The notes beneath the pieces were generated by a model that was not told the DNA's origin, ran no database searches, and saw only the letters and a list, made by a program, of their open reading frames with translations. Position numbers and translations under genes: made by a program. A DNA stretch of 63,452 bases, taken from Deltaproteobacteria bacterium. GTDB lineage: Bacteria; Desulfobacterota; Desulfarculia; JACQYL01. The DNA is taken from assembly GCA_016208165.1 (NCBI GenBank), contig JACQYL010000117.1, positions 1 through 63,452 on the forward strand, written 5' to 3'. Of the stretch, positions 5,087 to 37,398 are shown piece after piece. Positions within the stretch are counted from its first letter, which is position 1. The number at the start of each line of letters is the position of its first letter.

Positions 5087-7894
5087 TCACGTCAGCAAGG
5101 TCTGGGGCAAGGAGTTCGCCTGGCCCAGCATCGCCACGTCAACCTGCTGCAGAATCTGGTACGTGGTCATCTCGGAGATCGCCTTGGCCATGTTCAGGTC
5201 GCGGATGGTCGATTCGGCCGCGGTCTGGTTCTCCTCCTGAACCGCGAGGTTCGAGAGCGTATGGTCCAGACGGTTGATGTACGCGCCGATTCTGGCCCGT
5301 TCAGAGGAAACCGTCTGAATCGCGTTGTCGATTCGGTCCATGGCCTGGAACGATGTCTGCTGATTCACCACGAGCGCATTGTTCACCCCGAGGGCCACCG
5401 TGTCCATCTGGGCGATGTACGCGTTCATGGTCTGCCCCGGATTGGCTCCGATCTGGAAATCGATGGCCGAACTCACCAGATGGAGGTATTCCACCTCGGT
5501 TCCGGGAGAGCTGTAGAACTCGATCTGCTTGCTCGAGGAATTCCACGAGGAGGAGATATCCACATTCGAGTCCACCATCACATCCACACCGCTGATCACA
5601 CCGTGCAGTATGTTGTCGCTCACCGTATCCGAACCCACCAGTTCTCCCGTATGGGCGTCGTAAACGGTCACGGTCAAGGGGTCCGTCTCGTCCGCCGGAT
5701 CCTGGATCGTGGCGAGGCTCAAGGCTTTCAGCACGTCTTCTTCAGCGCTGAAGTACAGGTAGCCGCCCGTACCCTGCTTGGGCGAACGGATCACGATCGT
5801 TCCTTTGACCGCCTCATCGGAGTTTTCCGTGGGGTTCATCACGTAGTCGGTCACATGGTTGACGTCGGCGCTGTCCAGGACCTGACCCAAGCCGAGCCCG
5901 GTCCAACCCTGATCGGTCGCATCCAGGCTGATGATCTGCTCCATCTTGTCCGCCAGTTCCTGAATCGTGTCGCCTCCATCCACATAGAACGACGCGTTTT
6001 CCCCGTCTCCGGTGTAGATATTGATCCACTTCCCGTTCTCGCCCAACGCGAAGTTGCCGTTGGCGTCGTAGAACCGGTCCACCTTGGAAAGGAGCGTATC
6101 CGGGCCCGCCACATCGCCGGCGCCCAGCACGCGCACGTTGGTGCTCCTGTCTTCAAACGTAGCGCCGAAATCCATTTCCATGGTTCCGAATTCGACGCGC
6201 CCTTCGTCATCCATCCGGGCGAACGTCACCGTGGCCGAGGTGTTTTCGGGGGTCGTACCCAGATCCTCCCACAGCCCGTGGTTGAACGTCGGATAATCCG
6301 CGCCGGCGAGCCCTTCCCTGGCATTCCAGTCGCCGTCGCTGTTCAACACGTTGGTCCAGTCGTTAGCGGAACCGGATAGACGTACGGCGCCGTGTTCATC
6401 CGTGATGGCGTTCTGCATACCCAGGAGGAACTTGTCGCCCACCTCGAACGATCCGGTAAAGGTCAGGGTGAACTGGTTGGTGGCGTCACCGGCCACCTTC
6501 TGAATGGCGTCGTTGGCGCTGTCGTAATCGAAGTAGTTCGTCCATGTGGATCCCTCATCCCAGGAAACTTTGAAATCCACCGCGTCGTCTCCACCGGCGC
6601 CCACCACTTCGATGATCACGTAAGCGTTCGCTGTCAGAGCCTCGCCGGTTATGTTAGTGATTTCACCGGTGGACTCGGAGGTCCTGAACGCTCCCAGCAC
6701 CATGCCGCTGTCGGTCTCGAGATCCAGAGTTCTGGTGGCGCTGCCCGCGGCGGTCACCAGGTCGTAATCGCCGGCCGTGAGCCCTTCGGCGTCGTACACC
6801 TTGGCTATGGTGGCGTTGTCCGTGGCCAACTGCCGGTCATCGCCTAACGTTCCGGCGGTTCCGCCCTGCACGGTAAGAGTATCGAAACCGGTGAACGCGA
6901 CGCCGCCGTTCAAAATGGCCGAATCGGTGGCAATGTTAGCGCCCGTCCAATCGGCGATTTCTCCCGCCCAAGTTGTGGTTTGACCACCTCCGGTGACCGT
7001 CATGGACAGTCGATACAGGTCGGTCTCCGCCGTCACGTCCTTGGCCCGGATGATGATGTCTCCGCCGCTGACCAGTTCCGCTTCCACATACTGGCTGATG
7101 TCGGTGTCCGCATTGATGCTGCGCGCCAGCGCTTCCGCATCGGTGAATCCCGCAGTCTCACCCGAACCGGTGTTGACGGATACGGAAAAAGTGGTCGCGC
7201 CGCCGTCGAAGCTGAAGATCAGGTTGAGGTTTCCGGTGGTGGTGGCCTCCGTAACATTGCCGTCCGCTCCCCCCAGGTTAAAACGGAACTGGCTCGGGCT
7301 TCCGTCCTCGATCTGAGAAATAGCGCCGTCTTTCACCCTGAAAATGTCCGTCTTCAGGACGTGATTGGCCAGAGGCTCGGCGCTTTTCTCCAGCTTGTAG
7401 TTCCCTTCCGCCACCTGGCCGCGGATGATGGCCGTGATGTCGGAATTGTCCGCGCTCCACAACGCACTGGCCGAACCGTCCAACAGTTTCTTGGTGTTGA
7501 ACTCGGTCGAGGTCGCGATCCGATCGATTTCCTCCTTGAGCTGATCCATTTCACGCTGCAGTTCCTGGCGGTCGCTGGACGTCAGCACGCCGTTGGCCGC
7601 TTGCACGGCCAGCTCGCGCATTCTCTGAAGAATGTTGTGGGTCTCGCTCAAGGAACCTTCAGCCGTTTGCAGCATGGACTGAGCGTCCATGGCATTGGAC
7701 GTAGCTCGCGCCAAGCCTCGAATCTGGGTGCGAAATCGTTCCGAAATGGCCAGTCCGGAGGGATCGTCCGATGCGGAGTTGATTCGAAGACCGGTGGAAA
7801 GGTTGGAAAGCGCATTCTGAAGTTTATTGGTATTTACGGATAAGGATTGCTGCGCTTGAAACGCAACAATGTTATTGACAACTGACAATGCCAT
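5087..7894 (-). CDS. fliC: Giant flagellin
   Basis: A 935-residue flagellin, about twice the common 270-550. Residues 1 to about 165 form the D0/D1 half (SLSVNTNKLQNALSNLSTGL; LRINSASDDPSGLAIS; SNAMDAQSMLQTAEGSL), and about 850-935 the C-terminal D1/D0 half (RIDNAIQTVSSERARIGAYI; SEMTTYQILQQ). In between lie about 680 residues rich in Thr, Gly, Asp and Ala with beta-rich composition, the surface-exposed D2/D3 region and a likely site for O-glycans. AAGGAGG lies before the ATG. It is monocistronic, with a long structured leader (see entries at 7903-8150), and it abuts a glycan biosynthesis island upstream. Late sigma-28 expression and CsrA control are inferred from the leader. No fliD or fliS follows, unlike many flagellin loci. 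Confidence 0.97.
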   Translation of the reverse strand: MALSVVNNIVAFQAQQSLSVNTNKLQNALSNLSTGLRINSASDDPSGLAISERFRTQIRGLARATSNAMDAQSMLQTAEGSLSETHNILQRMRELAVQAANGVLTSSDRQELQREMDQLKEEIDRIATSTEFNTKKLLDGSASALWSADNSDITAIIRGQVAEGNYKLEKSAEPLANHVLKTDIFRVKDGAISQIEDGSPSQFRFNLGGADGNVTEATTTGNLNLIFSFDGGATTFSVSVNTGSGETAGFTDAEALARSINADTDISQYVEAELVSGGDIIIRAKDVTAETDLYRLSMTVTGGGQTTTWAGEIADWTGANIATDSAILNGGVAFTGFDTLTVQGGTAGTLGDDRQLATDNATIAKVYDAEGLTAGDYDLVTAAGSATRTLDLETDSGMVLGAFRTSESTGEITNITGEALTANAYVIIEVVGAGGDDAVDFKVSWDEGSTWTNYFDYDSANDAIQKVAGDATNQFTLTFTGSFEVGDKFLLGMQNAITDEHGAVRLSGSANDWTNVLNSDGDWNAREGLAGADYPTFNHGLWEDLGTTPENTSATVTFARMDDEGRVEFGTMEMDFGATFEDRSTNVRVLGAGDVAGPDTLLSKVDRFYDANGNFALGENGKWINIYTGDGENASFYVDGGDTIQELADKMEQIISLDATDQGWTGLGLGQVLDSADVNHVTDYVMNPTENSDEAVKGTIVIRSPKQGTGGYLYFSAEEDVLKALSLATIQDPADETDPLTVTVYDAHTGELVGSDTVSDNILHGVISGVDVMVDSNVDISSSWNSSSKQIEFYSSPGTEVEYLHLVSSAIDFQIGANPGQTMNAYIAQMDTVALGVNNALVVNQQTSFQAMDRIDNAIQTVSSERARIGAYINRLDHTLSNLAVQEENQTAAESTIRDLNMAKAISEMTTYQILQQVDVAMLGQANSLPQTLLT

Positions 7895-7902
7895 GTTTCA
7901 AT

Positions 7903-7947
7903 CCTCCTTGATTGATGTAACGCTTTGGGGGAATCCGTTCCCCTAAA
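7903..7947 (-). promoter_or_regulatory. Probable CsrA-binding hairpin plus GGA-containing Shine-Dalgarno in flagellin leader
   Basis: Read on the minus strand, 7947-7924 folds as UUU-A-GGGGAA, loop CGGA, UUCCCC-C-AAA: six perfect pairs, one A-C mismatch and three more pairs. The four-base loop exposes GGA, the core recognised by CsrA. About 28 bases downstream the ribosome binding site CAAGGAGGAUU (7910-7900) carries two more overlapping GGA cores. In Bacillus subtilis hag, CsrA bridges an upstream hairpin and a second site over the Shine-Dalgarno, and FliW releases it. Both csrA and fliW are encoded at 32328-32997. A further ACAGGAU match lies at 8002-8008. Confidence 0.6.
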
Positions 7948-7964: not shown

Positions 7965-8061
7965 GCTGACGTCCGCTATCTCGGCGGAGTCAGCCTGTCT
8001 GAATCCTGTCCCTCCTTTCCCTGTTTGGTCAGCATTTGAGTCAGGTTCCCGGCACGGAACC
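7965..8061 (-). promoter_or_regulatory. Additional hairpins in flagellin 5' leader
   Basis: Two further stems lie upstream of the CsrA-like hairpin. At 7965-7994 GCTGAC and TCCGC pair with GCGGA and GTCAGC: 11 pairs, one bulged base (7971) and a 7-base loop. At 8044-8061 GGTTCC pairs with GGAACC across a 6-base loop. Together with the hairpin at 7924-7947 they make a three-stem leader of roughly 190 bases, long for a flagellin mRNA. No known riboswitch class was recognised. Confidence 0.5.
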
Positions 8062-8089: not shown

Positions 8090-8150
8090 ACATCGGTAGA
8101 ACGAAAAGAAAACTTAAGGCAAAAATAGAATAGACCTATTTTTTTTTCGA
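8090..8150 (-). promoter_or_regulatory. Sigma-28-like flagellin promoter with A/T-rich upstream element
   Basis: On the minus strand TTAAGTTT (8117-8110) is followed after 12 bases by ACCGATGT (8097-8090), compared with the sigma-28 consensus TAAAGTTT-N11-GCCGATAA: 7/8 and 5/8 matches with the CCGAT core kept. Directly upstream, 8121-8149 is almost pure A/T with long A and T tracts, like an UP element. Transcription would start near 8083. Confidence 0.55.
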
Positions 8151-32327: not shown

Positions 32328-32756
32328 CTATCCCAGGAATCTGTGACGGGTCGAATAATCCGAATCCGTCAAAACCAGCTGTTTTGCCACGTTGATTTTC
32401 GTGTTGATCAGTATGGGACCCGCGAGATTCGCTGTAATCCGGGAAGGATCCTGCCCCACGGTGACAATACAGTACACCACACAATCCTCCACGTTTTCGA
32501 TAGAAATCGCCGCGGCGTCTTCCGGCTCCAAAGCGATCCTGTAATCCGGTTCTATGGACCGTGGATCAACGACCACAAAGGCCAATTCCGGGTCTTCAGC
32601 GGACTGGAGCCACTTAAACGGACTCGATTTGTCCGATTCGAGAAAGAAATACCGCTCAAAACCGGAAAATCCGAGAATGCCCTCTTTCACCGACATTATG
32701 GCCGTCTCTTCGACGTCTAGGTCACCAAAACGGGTCGTGCTAACTTTCATGGTCAT
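32328..32756 (-). CDS. fliW: Flagellar assembly factor FliW
   Basis: A 142-residue beta-barrel-like protein. FliW binds flagellin or CsrA: free FliW sequesters CsrA and so relieves repression of flagellin translation. Family features seen: FGDLDVEETAIMSVKEGILG, FSGFERYFFLE, PFKWLQSAEDPELAFVVVDP and the late PILINTKINVAKQLVLTDS. Length is typical. Its start overlaps the csrA stop region (ATG 32756 or 32750 lies before the csrA TAG at 32742-32740), a coupling that fixes the ratio of the two. In this window the probable CsrA target lies in the flagellin leader at 7903-7947. Confidence 0.97.
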   Translation of the reverse strand: MTMKVSTTRFGDLDVEETAIMSVKEGILGFSGFERYFFLESDKSSPFKWLQSAEDPELAFVVVDPRSIEPDYRIALEPEDAAAISIENVEDCVVYCIVTVGQDPSRITANLAGPILINTKINVAKQLVLTDSDYSTRHRFLG

Positions 32757-32997
32757 CTTTTCCGGGGCTGCGCTTCAGCCAGGCCTCTGTGACTCGCTGC
32801 AAATCCGGAACTCCGGCCTTGGCCGCTAGGATGTTCTCTTGCCTTACCTTCAGATAGATCTCTTCCCGATATATGGATACGCTTTTGGGTGCATCGATAC
32901 CCAGTTTGACCTGTCCGCTTTTGATCTCCATGATCGTGATGCGGATATCATCTCCAATGGTGATCGTCTGGCCCTCTTTCCGGGTAAGTACGAGCAC
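32740..32997 (-). CDS. csrA: Carbon storage regulator CsrA
   Basis: An 85-residue RNA-binding protein, which dimerises and binds GGA in hairpin loops, often over ribosome binding sites. N-terminal MLVLTRKEGQTITIGDDI, then VKLGIDAPKSVSIYREEIY, is the family hallmark; the C-terminal tail after VRQENILAA is somewhat long (family about 60-75). The start is GTG at 32997 with GGAGGG before it. It is encoded between flgL and fliW, the classical position in non-enteric flagellated bacteria. This implies control of flagellin synthesis by assembly state, consistent with the flagellin leader hairpin. Confidence 0.97.
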   Translation of the reverse strand: MLVLTRKEGQTITIGDDIRITIMEIKSGQVKLGIDAPKSVSIYREEIYLKVRQENILAAKAGVPDLQRVTEAWLKRSPGKDDHES

Positions 32998-33120: not shown

Positions 33121-36100
33121 CTAATCCAAGAAGTCCAACAGACTGAGAGATACCAGACGTGAAGCAGACTGCAACGTCGCCTGAACCGCTTGTTCCTGGT
33201 TGAGCAAACGCGTTATAGCCTCCGTGATGTCTACGTCTTCCGCTTCCGACAGCAGTCCTTTGAGTTCCAGACTATACTGCTCGATGTACTGCTGTGTTTG
33301 ATCGACGATCTGGAGTCTCGCTCCTGATTCCACCAAATGCTCCGAAAACCGGTCCATGCCTGCCTGCAGGTTTGCGGCTACGTTCTCGAGCGATTCGGAA
33401 TCGTTATTCATCAGAGCCTGTTTGAAATCATACAGGGTATCCAATATGTCCCGACCGGCCGAAAGGCCCAGGAGTTGCGCAGTATCGTCATCTACGCTTA
33501 ACACCACGGGTACGGCGCCGTCAATCAGTGATTCCAGTTTGAGCGCCGTTGAATTCTTATTGAATTTCGATCGCACTTCAACGTCGGCCGAATTGATTCG
33601 GGCCATCAGTTCACGCATGTTCCGGACGCCTTCCAGATCCACTTCAACCCGTTTGGAGCCGTTGACGATTTCTATCTTACCCGGATCCACGCCTGCTCCA
33701 CCGTAAAGGTCTCCGACCCCGGTGTACGCCTTCAGCAGAGGATTGAGGTCCGTGCCCGTAATACTGCTCGGCATACCCTCCGCCCCTGCGGTTTCGTCCG
33801 AGTATTGGGGCGAAAACGGACCGGCTCCGGAAAACACCCAATCGGTTGTAATGCCCAGAACGGATGCCGCGGATGACCCGGCGCCGGCGGGCAGCGGGCT
33901 CGTAACCCAATGGATTTCCATCTCCGTGGATGGGGTTATGGCGAACACGCCCCTATCCGGCGAGTAATCCACCTGGAACGTGGCAGTGGTCTCGTTCGTG
34001 GGATCCGTAATGTCCAAAGCCTGCTCGAGGACGTTTTTCAACGCTTTCGCCATCTGATTGCCGTTATACGTCCCCGGAGTCAGCGTCGCCTGGTAGGTCG
34101 TCCCGGACGCTGCCGAAGGTATGCTGAAATAGACGGTATTGATGTTGTCATCGATCGTAATCAGGCGATCCTCTTTGTAGATTCCCAGATCCCGCGCCGT
34201 ATCCGACATGAAAACCCGCATGTTCGTCACGCGATCCCTCGGGTCGTTGGTGTCGATCAGCTCGAGACCGTTGCCTTCCCCGTTCATCAGCACCGTGATG
34301 TTCACTCCGGCCGAAGCAAAACCCGCGTTCATGCGCTCTACGAAATCATGCACCGTAAGATCCGGGATGACAAATTGACTGGTGTAGGACACTTCGCCCA
34401 CCAGCGTCGAACCATTGACGAATCCCAGAAGATCCGAAGCGTTCCCCGCCACGGTCCAATCGAGCGTTACCGGCGGCGCTCCGTCTTCATTGATAAATGT
34501 GAAGGTTCCATCCCGGAACTCCACGGTGTAGTCATGACCGCCGCCGGAAGCCAGGGATTCCGCCTCCATCCGGCTTTCAATCGCCTGCGCCAGCTGGGCC
34601 CCGTCATAGAAACCCGGCGGTATTTCCACCTGCGCCACCCCTCCGTCATTGAATCGAATGATGTTGTTCCGGTTTGCGCCGCCCCCGATCACTTCGAAAG
34701 GCGCCATATCGATCCGGGCCAGGTTTCCGGCTCGATCCATCGCGCTGACGTGGTAAGTTTGTACGGCGTAGTCACTCGTGTACGAAAGGGCTCCGGATGT
34801 AGCATACGGTCTGAAACCCAACAGTCCCAGAGCGGTTGAGGCCGGATCCGCCCAATCTAGGTCGAGGGAGCCTCCGCGCTTCGCTATGCTGAATCGTCCG
34901 TCGGAGTAGTTAACCGAAAAGTCCATGGACGCTGTCGCGTTATTGAATTCCTGTTCTATCACGGCCGCCAACTCCTCGCCGGTGTAGGTCCCGGAAGGGA
35001 TGGCAAGGACTCCTCCTCCCAGATCGCTGTTGTAGCTGATCGAGTTGTTGAAGGCATCCACCACGTATTGCGGCGGGGCTTCCATACGAATACCCGCTCC
35101 CCCATTCAGATCCTTTACAAAAACGGAGTCCGTACCGTCGTCATAGTAGGAATTTTCCCGATACTCGCGCGCCAGATCGAGAGACAGCGTCTGTCCGGCC
35201 GCCCATCCCGAAACGTCCAGGTGCAGATCCCCCACCAGGTCGCCATCGAAATCCAACTCGATACTGGAAGCATTGGATGAAGTTACGGATAGGGACGGAA
35301 AACCGCCGTTGTCGGCAATGGCCCAGGTTCCGCCCGCCTGGAGTGTGAGATCGATTTGGTGATTCGACGGATTCAGGATGGAATCCAGATTCAGCAGTGT
35401 CGTCGAATCCAAACTCCCCGGCCCGCTTCCTGCGATCGTAATTCCGGCTTCAGTGGAAAACCCGATCGTTCTCAAGAAATCGCTTTGCCTCTCAGGGCCC
35501 TCACCGGCCATCAGTCGAATGGTGGACGTCATGCCCGAGCTTTGGGAAGTAATGGCAAACTGGCCCCCCCGGCTTTCGGAATAATCGACTTTCACGGCGT
35601 TGGTGGCCGCGTTGATCCTGGACTGCATGTGATCGGCCAGCTCTTCAGCGGTATATGCACCGGCGGCCAGAGTGATCTCCGTAACCCCCCCGCCGTCCAC
35701 GTTGATCCGGAACCGGTCGTTGACACCGCTAAGTATCGTGAATTCGACCTCTTCCTCGCTGGTGACCACATCGCCGGCGTTCAACGGATTCGGATCCCGA
35801 TTCGCAAATGCGAGCGTCTCCCTGATCTCGCTGGCCGTCCACAGCAATTGCATGTCGGAGTTGTTCGACTGATTGTTCGTTATGGTGAACCGGTTCAGTG
35901 TCTCCTGATCGTCGATAAAGTCGTACTCCACGCTGTACTCAAACGAGAATCCGGAAGCCGCGCTCTTGGCTTCCATCGCCTGTGCAACAAAACGCGCCAC
36001 CTCTTTTCCGTCGTACACGACTCCTCGAACCGCATCACTGTCCGCCAGGAGATCCGCCGTGACGGTAAAATCCTTCCGGTTAAACGTTGATTCCACCTGC

Positions 36101-37398
36101 GTTTGATCGAACGCCGTACCGGCCGTCTCCGTGGCGGTGAACGTATCCGAACCCGGCACGCCCGCTTTGGCCGCTACCGTCAGTTCATCGGTGGTCGCGT
36201 CGTAACGCGCTGTGAGCCATTGCGAAAGCACCGTATTTCCATTGACGGCGTCCGCCAGATCGGCCCCCAACGCGTCCTGGGTAGGGGGAACGCCATAGTT
36301 CACGGTTATGGTTTCTTCCGTATTCCCAAATTGGAAGTTGATCGAGTACGTGGTGTCCCCCAGCGCCGCCGAAACGGTGTTCACCGCCGCATAGCCCGTT
36401 TCCACGAACACCAGCGAGTCGTTGGTATCGTCAAACACAAATCCGGAATCGACTTCAGCCACGGCGCCGGAGAACCGGCTGTGACTGGTGCTGAACGGCG
36501 TGGTGACGGTCCTCATCTTATAACTATTGCCCGTTTCGTCCGAAGCTTTGGCCGTGAGGCTGAAGACACCGTCTTCGTATGTGGCGTCGACGGCGTCGTT
36601 GAGATCAAGGTCGTGCCGGACGGCTCGCACCAGGCCGCGTCCGAGTTCATCCTGGGTTGCCGAAGCACTGGTGGTATAAGAAACCGTGTGATCCACGCCG
36701 TCATCCAGCGTGATCGTGATGTCGTAGGTGCTATTATCGGCGGGGTTGGATAACACCCAGTTGTTCAGTTGCGCCTGTTGTCCCGTGGCCATACCACTAT
36801 ACGCATACGCCAGTTTCCCGGTGTTATTATGGGGCTCGGCGATGACCGGGTTCAGATCCGCCACCAGGAAGTCACTTCCCGGGAGGTTGTAGGCCTGGAA
36901 AACCCCGTCGTTTATTTCCGCCTGTATGCTCTTGCCATTCCCGTTGTATGTGCCGTCGGCATTGAATGGCGCATATGCGGTCCGGGTGCCGCCGAAAATG
37001 TAGGAATTGCCGACTCGCGTGTTGCCCAGACGAATCAAGCTCTCGATTACACCTTCTATCTCCGTCACAGCGGCCTGCCGGCTTTCCGCGCTTTGAGTTC
37101 CATTGGCCTGTTGGACCGCCAACGTTTTGGCCCCCTGAAGCAGATTCGACGCTTCCTGCAGCACGCTCTCCGTGGTGGACAACCAGGAATCCGCACGCAC
37201 TATGTTTCGAGGATATTGTTCGGTCCTCGAAATCACTTCCCTGTAAGACAGGATGCGCCCCATATCCAGCGGCCCGTCCGAAGCCTTGAGCACCTGTTTT
37301 CCGGTGCTCACCTGGGTTTGATATTCGAGCAGGCGTTCTTGATTGTTCAGGATGCCGCCAAGTATGGACTGGTAAATCATGTTTTGGGTTACTCGCAT
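33121..37398 (-). CDS. flgL: Giant hook-filament junction protein FlgL
   Basis: A 1425-residue FlgL, three to five times the usual 300-400. The terminal parts are normal: residues 1-150 have MRVTQNMIYQSILGGILNNQ, QVSTGKQVLKASDGPLDMGR and GNSYIFGGTRTAYAPFN; the last 100 residues are helical (LLSEAEDVDITEAITRLLNQ). Residues about 150-1310 form a huge central insertion. It contains four copies of a 80-100-residue module (556-648, 782-862, 910-993, 1083-1183) and two related units at about 225-297 and 351-426. GGGAGGA precedes the ATG. FlgL joins hook to filament; the insertion should project outside the junction, and may match the giant flagellin filament in girth. It lies in flgM-flgN-flgK-flgL order. 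Confidence 0.96.
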   Translation of the reverse strand: MRVTQNMIYQSILGGILNNQERLLEYQTQVSTGKQVLKASDGPLDMGRILSYREVISRTEQYPRNIVRADSWLSTTESVLQEASNLLQGAKTLAVQQANGTQSAESRQAAVTEIEGVIESLIRLGNTRVGNSYIFGGTRTAYAPFNADGTYNGNGKSIQAEINDGVFQAYNLPGSDFLVADLNPVIAEPHNNTGKLAYAYSGMATGQQAQLNNWVLSNPADNSTYDITITLDDGVDHTVSYTTSASATQDELGRGLVRAVRHDLDLNDAVDATYEDGVFSLTAKASDETGNSYKMRTVTTPFSTSHSRFSGAVAEVDSGFVFDDTNDSLVFVETGYAAVNTVSAALGDTTYSINFQFGNTEETITVNYGVPPTQDALGADLADAVNGNTVLSQWLTARYDATTDELTVAAKAGVPGSDTFTATETAGTAFDQTQVESTFNRKDFTVTADLLADSDAVRGVVYDGKEVARFVAQAMEAKSAASGFSFEYSVEYDFIDDQETLNRFTITNNQSNNSDMQLLWTASEIRETLAFANRDPNPLNAGDVVTSEEEVEFTILSGVNDRFRINVDGGGVTEITLAAGAYTAEELADHMQSRINAATNAVKVDYSESRGGQFAITSQSSGMTSTIRLMAGEGPERQSDFLRTIGFSTEAGITIAGSGPGSLDSTTLLNLDSILNPSNHQIDLTLQAGGTWAIADNGGFPSLSVTSSNASSIELDFDGDLVGDLHLDVSGWAAGQTLSLDLAREYRENSYYDDGTDSVFVKDLNGGAGIRMEAPPQYVVDAFNNSISYNSDLGGGVLAIPSGTYTGEELAAVIEQEFNNATASMDFSVNYSDGRFSIAKRGGSLDLDWADPASTALGLLGFRPYATSGALSYTSDYAVQTYHVSAMDRAGNLARIDMAPFEVIGGGANRNNIIRFNDGGVAQVEIPPGFYDGAQLAQAIESRMEAESLASGGGHDYTVEFRDGTFTFINEDGAPPVTLDWTVAGNASDLLGFVNGSTLVGEVSYTSQFVIPDLTVHDFVERMNAGFASAGVNITVLMNGEGNGLELIDTNDPRDRVTNMRVFMSDTARDLGIYKEDRLITIDDNINTVYFSIPSAASGTTYQATLTPGTYNGNQMAKALKNVLEQALDITDPTNETTATFQVDYSPDRGVFAITPSTEMEIHWVTSPLPAGAGSSAASVLGITTDWVFSGAGPFSPQYSDETAGAEGMPSSITGTDLNPLLKAYTGVGDLYGGAGVDPGKIEIVNGSKRVEVDLEGVRNMRELMARINSADVEVRSKFNKNSTALKLESLIDGAVPVVLSVDDDTAQLLGLSAGRDILDTLYDFKQALMNNDSESLENVAANLQAGMDRFSEHLVESGARLQIVDQTQQYIEQYSLELKGLLSEAEDVDITEAITRLLNQEQAVQATLQSASRLVSLSLLDFLD
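33850..35733 (-). repeat. Four-fold protein repeat encoded within flgL
   Basis: Modules at 35455-35733, 34813-35055, 34420-34671 and 33850-34152 each encode a strand ending in [L/I]xxGxYxxxxLAxxh, a short helix, then VxYxxxxGxFxI and a hydrophobic strand and closing LG[F/I]. Examples: IPSGTYTGEELAAVIE, IPPGFYDGAQLAQAIE, LAAGAYTAEELADHMQ, LTPGTYNGNQMAKALK. The copies are diverged at the DNA level, so the duplications are old. The pattern is of adhesin-like or fibre-like domains displayed outside the junction. Confidence 0.75.

Follow-up and report, generated by a model that had tools for sequence, protein, structure and literature searches.

How CsrA and FliW regulate flagellin synthesis has been elucidated in a few species. 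In Bacillus subtilis, CsrA represses translation of the flagellin gene hag by occluding the Shine-Dalgarno (SD) motif, and FliW antagonises CsrA (PMC6529632). In Campylobacter jejuni, a Gram-negative species, the flaA leader contains two adjacent GGA stem-loops, for which compensatory changes are found in relatives, and FliW is also the antagonist of CsrA; the two GGA motifs are 21 nt apart, and a spacing of 18 nt is quoted as optimal for a CsrA dimer (PMC4894983). The Hag-FliW-CsrA mechanism itself is known from these two species (PMC6529632, PMC4894983). For Geobacter sulfurreducens, a biofilm study from 2026 reports binding of CsrA to FliW; direct binding of mRNAs is said there to await validation, and the role of FliC is left open (PMC13407953).

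The window analyzed here is a stretch of 63,452 nt from a Deltaproteobacteria bacterium of the class Desulfarculia. The first-pass annotation had proposed that the flagellin leader carries a CsrA-type hairpin and a GGA-containing SD motif, and that csrA and fliW lie in the same window. Both genes were indeed found there, and the relevant features are the following:

5087..7894, minus strand: flagellin gene, 935 aa (Pfam Flagellin_N 1e-41 and Flagellin_C 1.6e-19)
7894-7892, minus strand: flagellin start codon ATG (sequence)
7898..7915, minus strand: SL2 hairpin UCAAUC-AAGGAG-GAUUGA, putative second CsrA site (fold)
7903..7909, minus strand: SD motif AAGGAGG of the flagellin gene (sequence)
7928..7943, minus strand: SL1 hairpin GGGGAA-CGGA-TTCCCC, putative upstream CsrA site (sequence, fold, conservation, covariation)
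8091..8117, minus strand: sigma28-like promoter TTAAGTTT-N11-TACCGATG (12 of 16 consensus matches, best scored register)
32328..32756, minus strand: fliW, 142 aa (Pfam FliW 2.1e-38)
32740..32997, minus strand: csrA, 85 aa (Pfam CsrA 4e-26)

On the minus strand, the flagellin start codon is preceded by TTTAGGGGAACGGATTCCCCCAAAGCGTTACATCAATCAAGGAGGATTGAAAC-ATG. Positions 7947-7924 of this strand read TTT-A-GGGGAA-CGGA-TTCCCC-C-AAA, i.e., the six-pair stem with its CGGA loop is followed outward by an A/C mismatch and three more pairs, and the whole structure spans 7924-7947. Stem, mismatch, outer pairs, loop and coordinates had all been described correctly at first reading. The GGA-containing SD motif is also present at 7903-7909, but that reading had overlooked that the second site is a whole hairpin, SL2, the hexaloop of which is the SD motif itself in the predicted fold. 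The GGA within the SD motif is no evidence on its own, because every AAGGAGG contains one. The loop GGA of SL1 and the SD GGA in SL2 are separated by 26 nt, and the leader has at least two GGA sites, one of them overlapping the SD motif, at a distance that a dimer can bridge. A reading of SL1 as a terminator or attenuator was rejected, as CAAAGC and no T run is found 3′ of the hairpin.

The sigma28-like promoter is a weak to moderate candidate; in consensus scoring of the flagellin leader, a score of at least 12 was reached by 21 of 500 mononucleotide shuffles. Its position would imply a leader length of about 190 nt. Within the leader, 5′ of SL1, a hairpin (CTGACTCCGCCGAGATAGCGGACGTCAG, 7966-7993, minus strand) and a GGA-rich stretch (GGGAAAGGAGGGACAGGAT, 8003-8021, minus strand) could provide extra contacts for CsrA. 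A second flagellin of 942 aa was found by the flagellin search of the same genome (G000:C123), and its leader contains TCTGGGGA-AGGGAA-TCCCCGGG, followed by AATCAAGGAGGATT. The label "giant" that had been given to the window flagellin does not apply to a protein of 935 aa, as the term is used above 1000 aa (PMC6248924).

One of the closest known systems is C. jejuni flaA, where a pair of neighbouring GGA stem-loops, compensatory changes among relatives and a Gram-negative host are likewise found; the Gram-negative case is thus not in itself new (PMC4894983). The gap of 26 nt in the window and the median gap of 21 nt in relatives lie close to the 21-nt spacing in flaA and to the quoted optimum of 18 nt, and the layout of SL2, with the SD motif in a hexaloop, resembles the two adjacent hexaloops of flaA (PMC4894983). 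FliW is the experimentally established CsrA antagonist in C. jejuni (PMC4894983), whereas here the csrA-fliW pair is present and its role is predicted. The two genes overlap here but are not adjacent in Epsilonproteobacteria; moreover, the phylum differs, the flagellin has 935 aa, and the system here is predicted from sequence. With B. subtilis the locus has in common that fliW and csrA are neighbours, together with the predicted occlusion of the SD motif by CsrA and its antagonism by FliW (PMC6529632), but the order is csrA-fliW here and fliW-csrA in Bacillus, and the element here consists of two covarying hairpins. In G. sulfurreducens, likewise a delta-proteobacterium, CsrA has N55 and csrA stands ahead of fliW; the available text of that account does not include the flagellin leader element (PMC13407953). 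No published description of the leader element in delta-proteobacteria was found in a literature search that covered few of the subscription papers. What looks new is the breadth and the anatomy: a covarying two-hairpin element, unmatched in Rfam, in flagellin leaders across the phylum.

The csrA gene of the window is the only one found in its genome. The 3′ end of csrA and the start of fliW share 17 nt, an overlap that suggests coupled translation of the two genes. The encoded CsrA has R44, V51, N55 and an extended C-terminus, and thus is of the FliW-binding type with the RNA-binding R44. In class relatives, R44, I51 and N55 were present in all 29 CsrA sequences read, when a one-residue insertion was allowed in three of them. 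Positions 51 and 55 are of importance because in C. jejuni the binding of FliW is impaired when V51 or N55 is changed (PMC7829508); in G. sulfurreducens, too, CsrA requires N55 to bind FliW (PMC13407953). The closest solved chain to the window CsrA is the CsrA of the CsrA-FliW complex 5dmb, and the closest to the window FliW is 5dmb_A of the same complex. The window also encodes a FlgL-type hook-filament junction protein of 1425 aa (33121-37398, minus strand), which is far above the usual size and in which Pfam recognises Flagellin_N only.

Judged from the window sequence alone, the SL1/SL2 pair was suggestive. The two strands of the 63-kb window together contain three perfect stems of at least six pairs that close a GGA-bearing loop of 4 nt; only SL1 lies in a leader, and the other two lie within long ORFs. 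Such a stem was found in 0.14% of shuffled copies of the window leader. A looser criterion, which accepts any apical loop with GGA, was passed by 5 of the 38 upstream regions of the window. The last 99 nt of the flagellin leader had an ordinary fold energy (z -0.97). Therefore, the decision had to rest on relatives, and once these were compared, the pair became convincing.

For this comparison, flagellins were sought in 60 genomes of the class, and their leaders were extracted; Deltaproteobacteria MAGs Dive96, Mucispirillum, Hydrogenedentota and Planctomycetes were added, and the genomes compared are mostly MAGs. In 62 leaders, the summed probability of GGA in an apical loop was 39.8, compared with 7.9 ± 2.0 in dinucleotide shuffles, and the mean probability was 0.64 in the leader and 0.10 in a control region farther upstream. 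GGA was the commonest apical-loop triplet among all 64 trinucleotides. A GGA-loop hairpin was present in 41 of the 62 leaders, with several Watson-Crick pair types at each stem position, and the median GGA-to-GGA gap over the relatives was 21 nt. The first-pass annotation had made the proposal depend on conservation of the stem and the loop GGA; the position of the hairpin and the loop consensus ANGGA turned out to be conserved, compensatory changes were many, and the hairpin co-occurred with csrA-fliW, so that the proposal withstood this check.

The covariation of SL1 was quantified in three sets of leaders. In 13 leaders chosen for their SL1+SD architecture (alignment A3), it was 0.470, compared with 0.141 ± 0.039 after shuffling and at most 0.085 when the alignment was slid. 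In alignment A5, comprising 27 phylum matches outside the training set and the two leaders of the own genome, it was 0.614 versus 0.131, a score that leans toward structure because the sequences were found with a model that rewards pairing. In 17 leaders from a single family, which had been selected by homology of the flagellins and not by structure, it was 0.271 versus 0.115 ± 0.018, and 92% of the cells paired. As leaders of related genomes are not independent, the shuffled controls overstate significance, and the slid controls, which were low throughout, and the FliW-less controls are safer.

Conservation was not uniform. In class family f2, six leaders (L004, L005, L010, L011, L013, L018) belong to flagellin frames of about 1650-1717 aa, which are above the 1000 aa mark for giant flagellins. 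Among the leaders of this size class, L005, L011, L013 and L018 have GGA in a short interrupted stem only, and folding of L004, L006 and L010 revealed no GGA-loop hairpin. Several of the giant flagellins of f2 have a GCC-GGAG-GGC variant of the hairpin. In planctomycete flagellin leaders, no GGA apical loop was found by folding.

For SL2, a hand-picked alignment (A6) serves as an illustration only, and the quantification was based on 55 unselected leaders with a readable SD motif from genomes with FliW. Their mean SD-stem score was 3.74, compared with 2.50 ± 0.125 when the 3′ flanks were swapped, and the respective values within the class were 2.70 and 1.94 ± 0.125. The covariation of SL2 in the 55 leaders was 0.472 versus 0.162 ± 0.022. 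Of these leaders, 50 form the second pair and 48 the third, whereas the column composition predicts 28 and 25. In 15 leaders from FliW-less genomes, no SD stem above the flank-swapped level was detected (1.60 versus 1.56 ± 0.17), and the FliW-less set showed no covariation (0.143 versus 0.126). Non-flagellin genes were near background (2.24 versus 2.05 ± 0.136), and this was also true for non-flagellin genes with AGGAGG, a set of only 12 (1.58 versus 1.61).

The specificity for flagellins was analyzed with a covariance model, R1, that was built from A3 and comprises SL1, the spacer, the SD motif and the start codon. Its two best matches in the own genome of 5.7 Mb are the two flagellin leaders, both of which are training sequences; a third match (G000:C51, 28 bits) is not located ahead of a flagellin. 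In 198 genomes of the phylum, all 29 top loci examined directly precede the ATG of a flagellin gene. These loci (L145-L173, E 5e-10 to 3e-4) are the best match of each of 29 genomes, and the count omits a few second matches in the same range from these genomes. L145 and L146 correspond to L053 and L052 of the training set, and the other 27 lie outside it. At E values of 7e-4 to 8e-3, 9 of 19 matches examined precede flagellins and the rest precede other genes or are unclear, and thus R1 is specific only at high scores. In several Mucispirillum genomes, the element is found ahead of two to three flagellin paralogues. A search of Rfam with the leader region of the window and five element-bearing loci retrieved no family at gathering score; a CRISPR-DR9 match overlapping the leader was below the threshold and was rejected as spurious.

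Next, the co-occurrence with csrA and fliW was quantified. Within the class, csrA was found in 46 of 60 genomes and fliW in exactly these 46, and the two genes are neighbours in the coordinates listed. In the class search, both were missing from eight genomes of genus g5 that lack flagellin. In a genome without flagellin (G013:C140), fliW is divergent (65 bits) and csrA is present only as a fragment (21 bits), a state that resembles decay following filament loss. In the phylum sample, 72 genomes have flagellin and fliW, 21 flagellin only, 14 fliW only, and 92 neither (p = 6e-21). Matches to R1 at E <= 0.01 were present in 48 of the 72 flagellates with FliW, but in 4 of the 21 without FliW (p = 1e-4).

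A structure-blind set was generated by taking one flagellin per genome from a Flagellin_C search and then reading its leader. When the last 85 nt of the leaders were scored, a GGA apical loop was present in 39 of 57 leaders from genomes with FliW and in 2 of 15 without it (Fisher p = 2e-4, rank test p = 3e-5); the FliW-less genomes also differ in composition, having A-rich leaders. About one third of the flagellin leaders from FliW genomes show no clear hairpin with a GGA loop within this 85-nt stretch, and in some of them, e.g., L232, L237, L238 and L243, a sigma54-type promoter (TGGCAC-N5-TTGC) near the SD motif is apparently the cause. Five further FliW-less genomes, which are element-bearing or incomplete, had been set apart beforehand. 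A GGA loop was present in all four of their readable leaders, with neither csrA nor fliW found, which fits a single assembly gap as well as a real exception; if these four are counted against the hypothesis, the FliW-less figure becomes 6 of 19. In nine FliW-less flagellates that are 99-100% complete, csrA was also not found, and therefore the contributions of CsrA and FliW are inseparable in this comparison. By eye, the flagellin leaders of FliW-less and CsrA-less flagellates (L279-L286) look very short and rich in A, and in several of them a sigma28-like promoter appears to lie near the SD motif, as if the leaders had shrunk upon loss of csrA-fliW. Against expectation, the fliC leader of E. 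coli, a genome with CsrA and without FliW, has a GGA apical loop (P 0.92), and thus SL1-like loops are no proof of control by FliW.

The flagellin leader is very probably a bipartite CsrA operator of a CsrA-FliW-flagellin feedback, with binding, repression, release by FliW and coupling to export as its predicted steps. The computed support consists of both hairpins, their conservation and covariation, the specificity for flagellins, the co-occurrence with csrA-fliW, and the presence in CsrA of the residues that contact FliW. SL1 with its ANGGA loop would be the high-affinity site, and a CsrA dimer docked there would also take the GGA in the hexaloop of SL2 about 20-30 nt downstream. By bridging SL1 and SL2, CsrA would hide the SD motif and block ribosome binding. 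FliW, encoded in the csrA-fliW pair, would remove CsrA except when unexported flagellin binds FliW, and flagellin would be translated while being exported.

The leader might instead chiefly titrate CsrA, the abundant flagellin mRNA being a sponge that affects other flagellar or metabolic targets, with repression of flagellin itself as a secondary effect. Titration of CsrA by the flaA leader has been shown in C. jejuni (PMC4894983), and it is in line with this idea that the best R1 matches in the own genome are flagellin leaders. In contrast, the location of the SD motif in the SL2 loop and the covarying stem in unselected leaders point to direct translational control, which makes titration as the chief role unlikely, while the two roles are compatible. 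It is very unlikely that CsrA acts on the leader but antagonistic small RNAs set its activity, as in gammaproteobacteria, with FliW being irrelevant. The GGA loop of E. coli fliC in a genome without FliW would agree with such control, but csrA overlaps fliW, the same 46 of the 60 class relatives have both genes, N55, which is needed for FliW binding, is invariant (PMC7829508), and CsrA-FliW binding via N55 has been shown in G. sulfurreducens (PMC13407953).

A chance hairpin has a negligible probability, as the conservation, the compensatory changes and the location of 29 of 29 top R1 matches at flagellins outweigh the 5 of 38 upstream regions of the window that pass the loose GGA-loop test. 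Abundant mRNAs commonly carry hairpins near their ends, and the fold energy of the leader is not unusual, as would be expected for generic structures that affect mRNA stability or SD accessibility and have no connection to CsrA. However, GGA ranks first among the 64 loop triplets, the hairpin is mostly missing in FliW-less flagellates, and SD hairpins are not found at other genes, and hence a generic role is extremely unlikely.

As a bipartite CsrA operator, the element would extend a known feedback switch between flagellin and its export to a large group of bacteria, as predicted from sequence. Its occurrence across the phylum and its rarity where csrA-fliW is missing predict that flagellin is a main target of CsrA-FliW in this group. 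The element names bases for mutation, and the model could find CsrA-controlled flagellins elsewhere. We see an even chance that SL1 and SL2 form an undescribed, widespread family of cis-regulatory RNAs in flagellin mRNAs, that csrA is chiefly flagellar in these bacteria, and that csrA-fliW and the two-hairpin leader are kept together and either disappear along with flagellin or give way to short leaders without structure.

Several matches to R1 are located at genes other than flagellins. Those in planctomycetes were rejected as flagellin leaders, because the downstream genes do not encode flagellins. In four planctomycete loci (L202, L204, L205, L211), a hairpin of the GGGCAGGACGCCC type, accompanied by the SD motif CAAGGAGG, precedes a lipoprotein-like family with the conserved pattern ...GCV...YNHAARQAV.APFAQQV, which is a possible non-flagellar target of CsrA. 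In two genomes (L188, L192), the hairpin GCTGGAAAAAGGACTTTCCGGC is found before a conserved protein, MEIQDSSIAMFSNRTYLEKYEK, possibly another CsrA target. In a Hydrogenedentota MAG (L209), a strong match to SL1 and the SD motif (E 1.3e-4) precedes a non-flagellin ORF that starts with MQALAGYQSLEATYSRTLAV.
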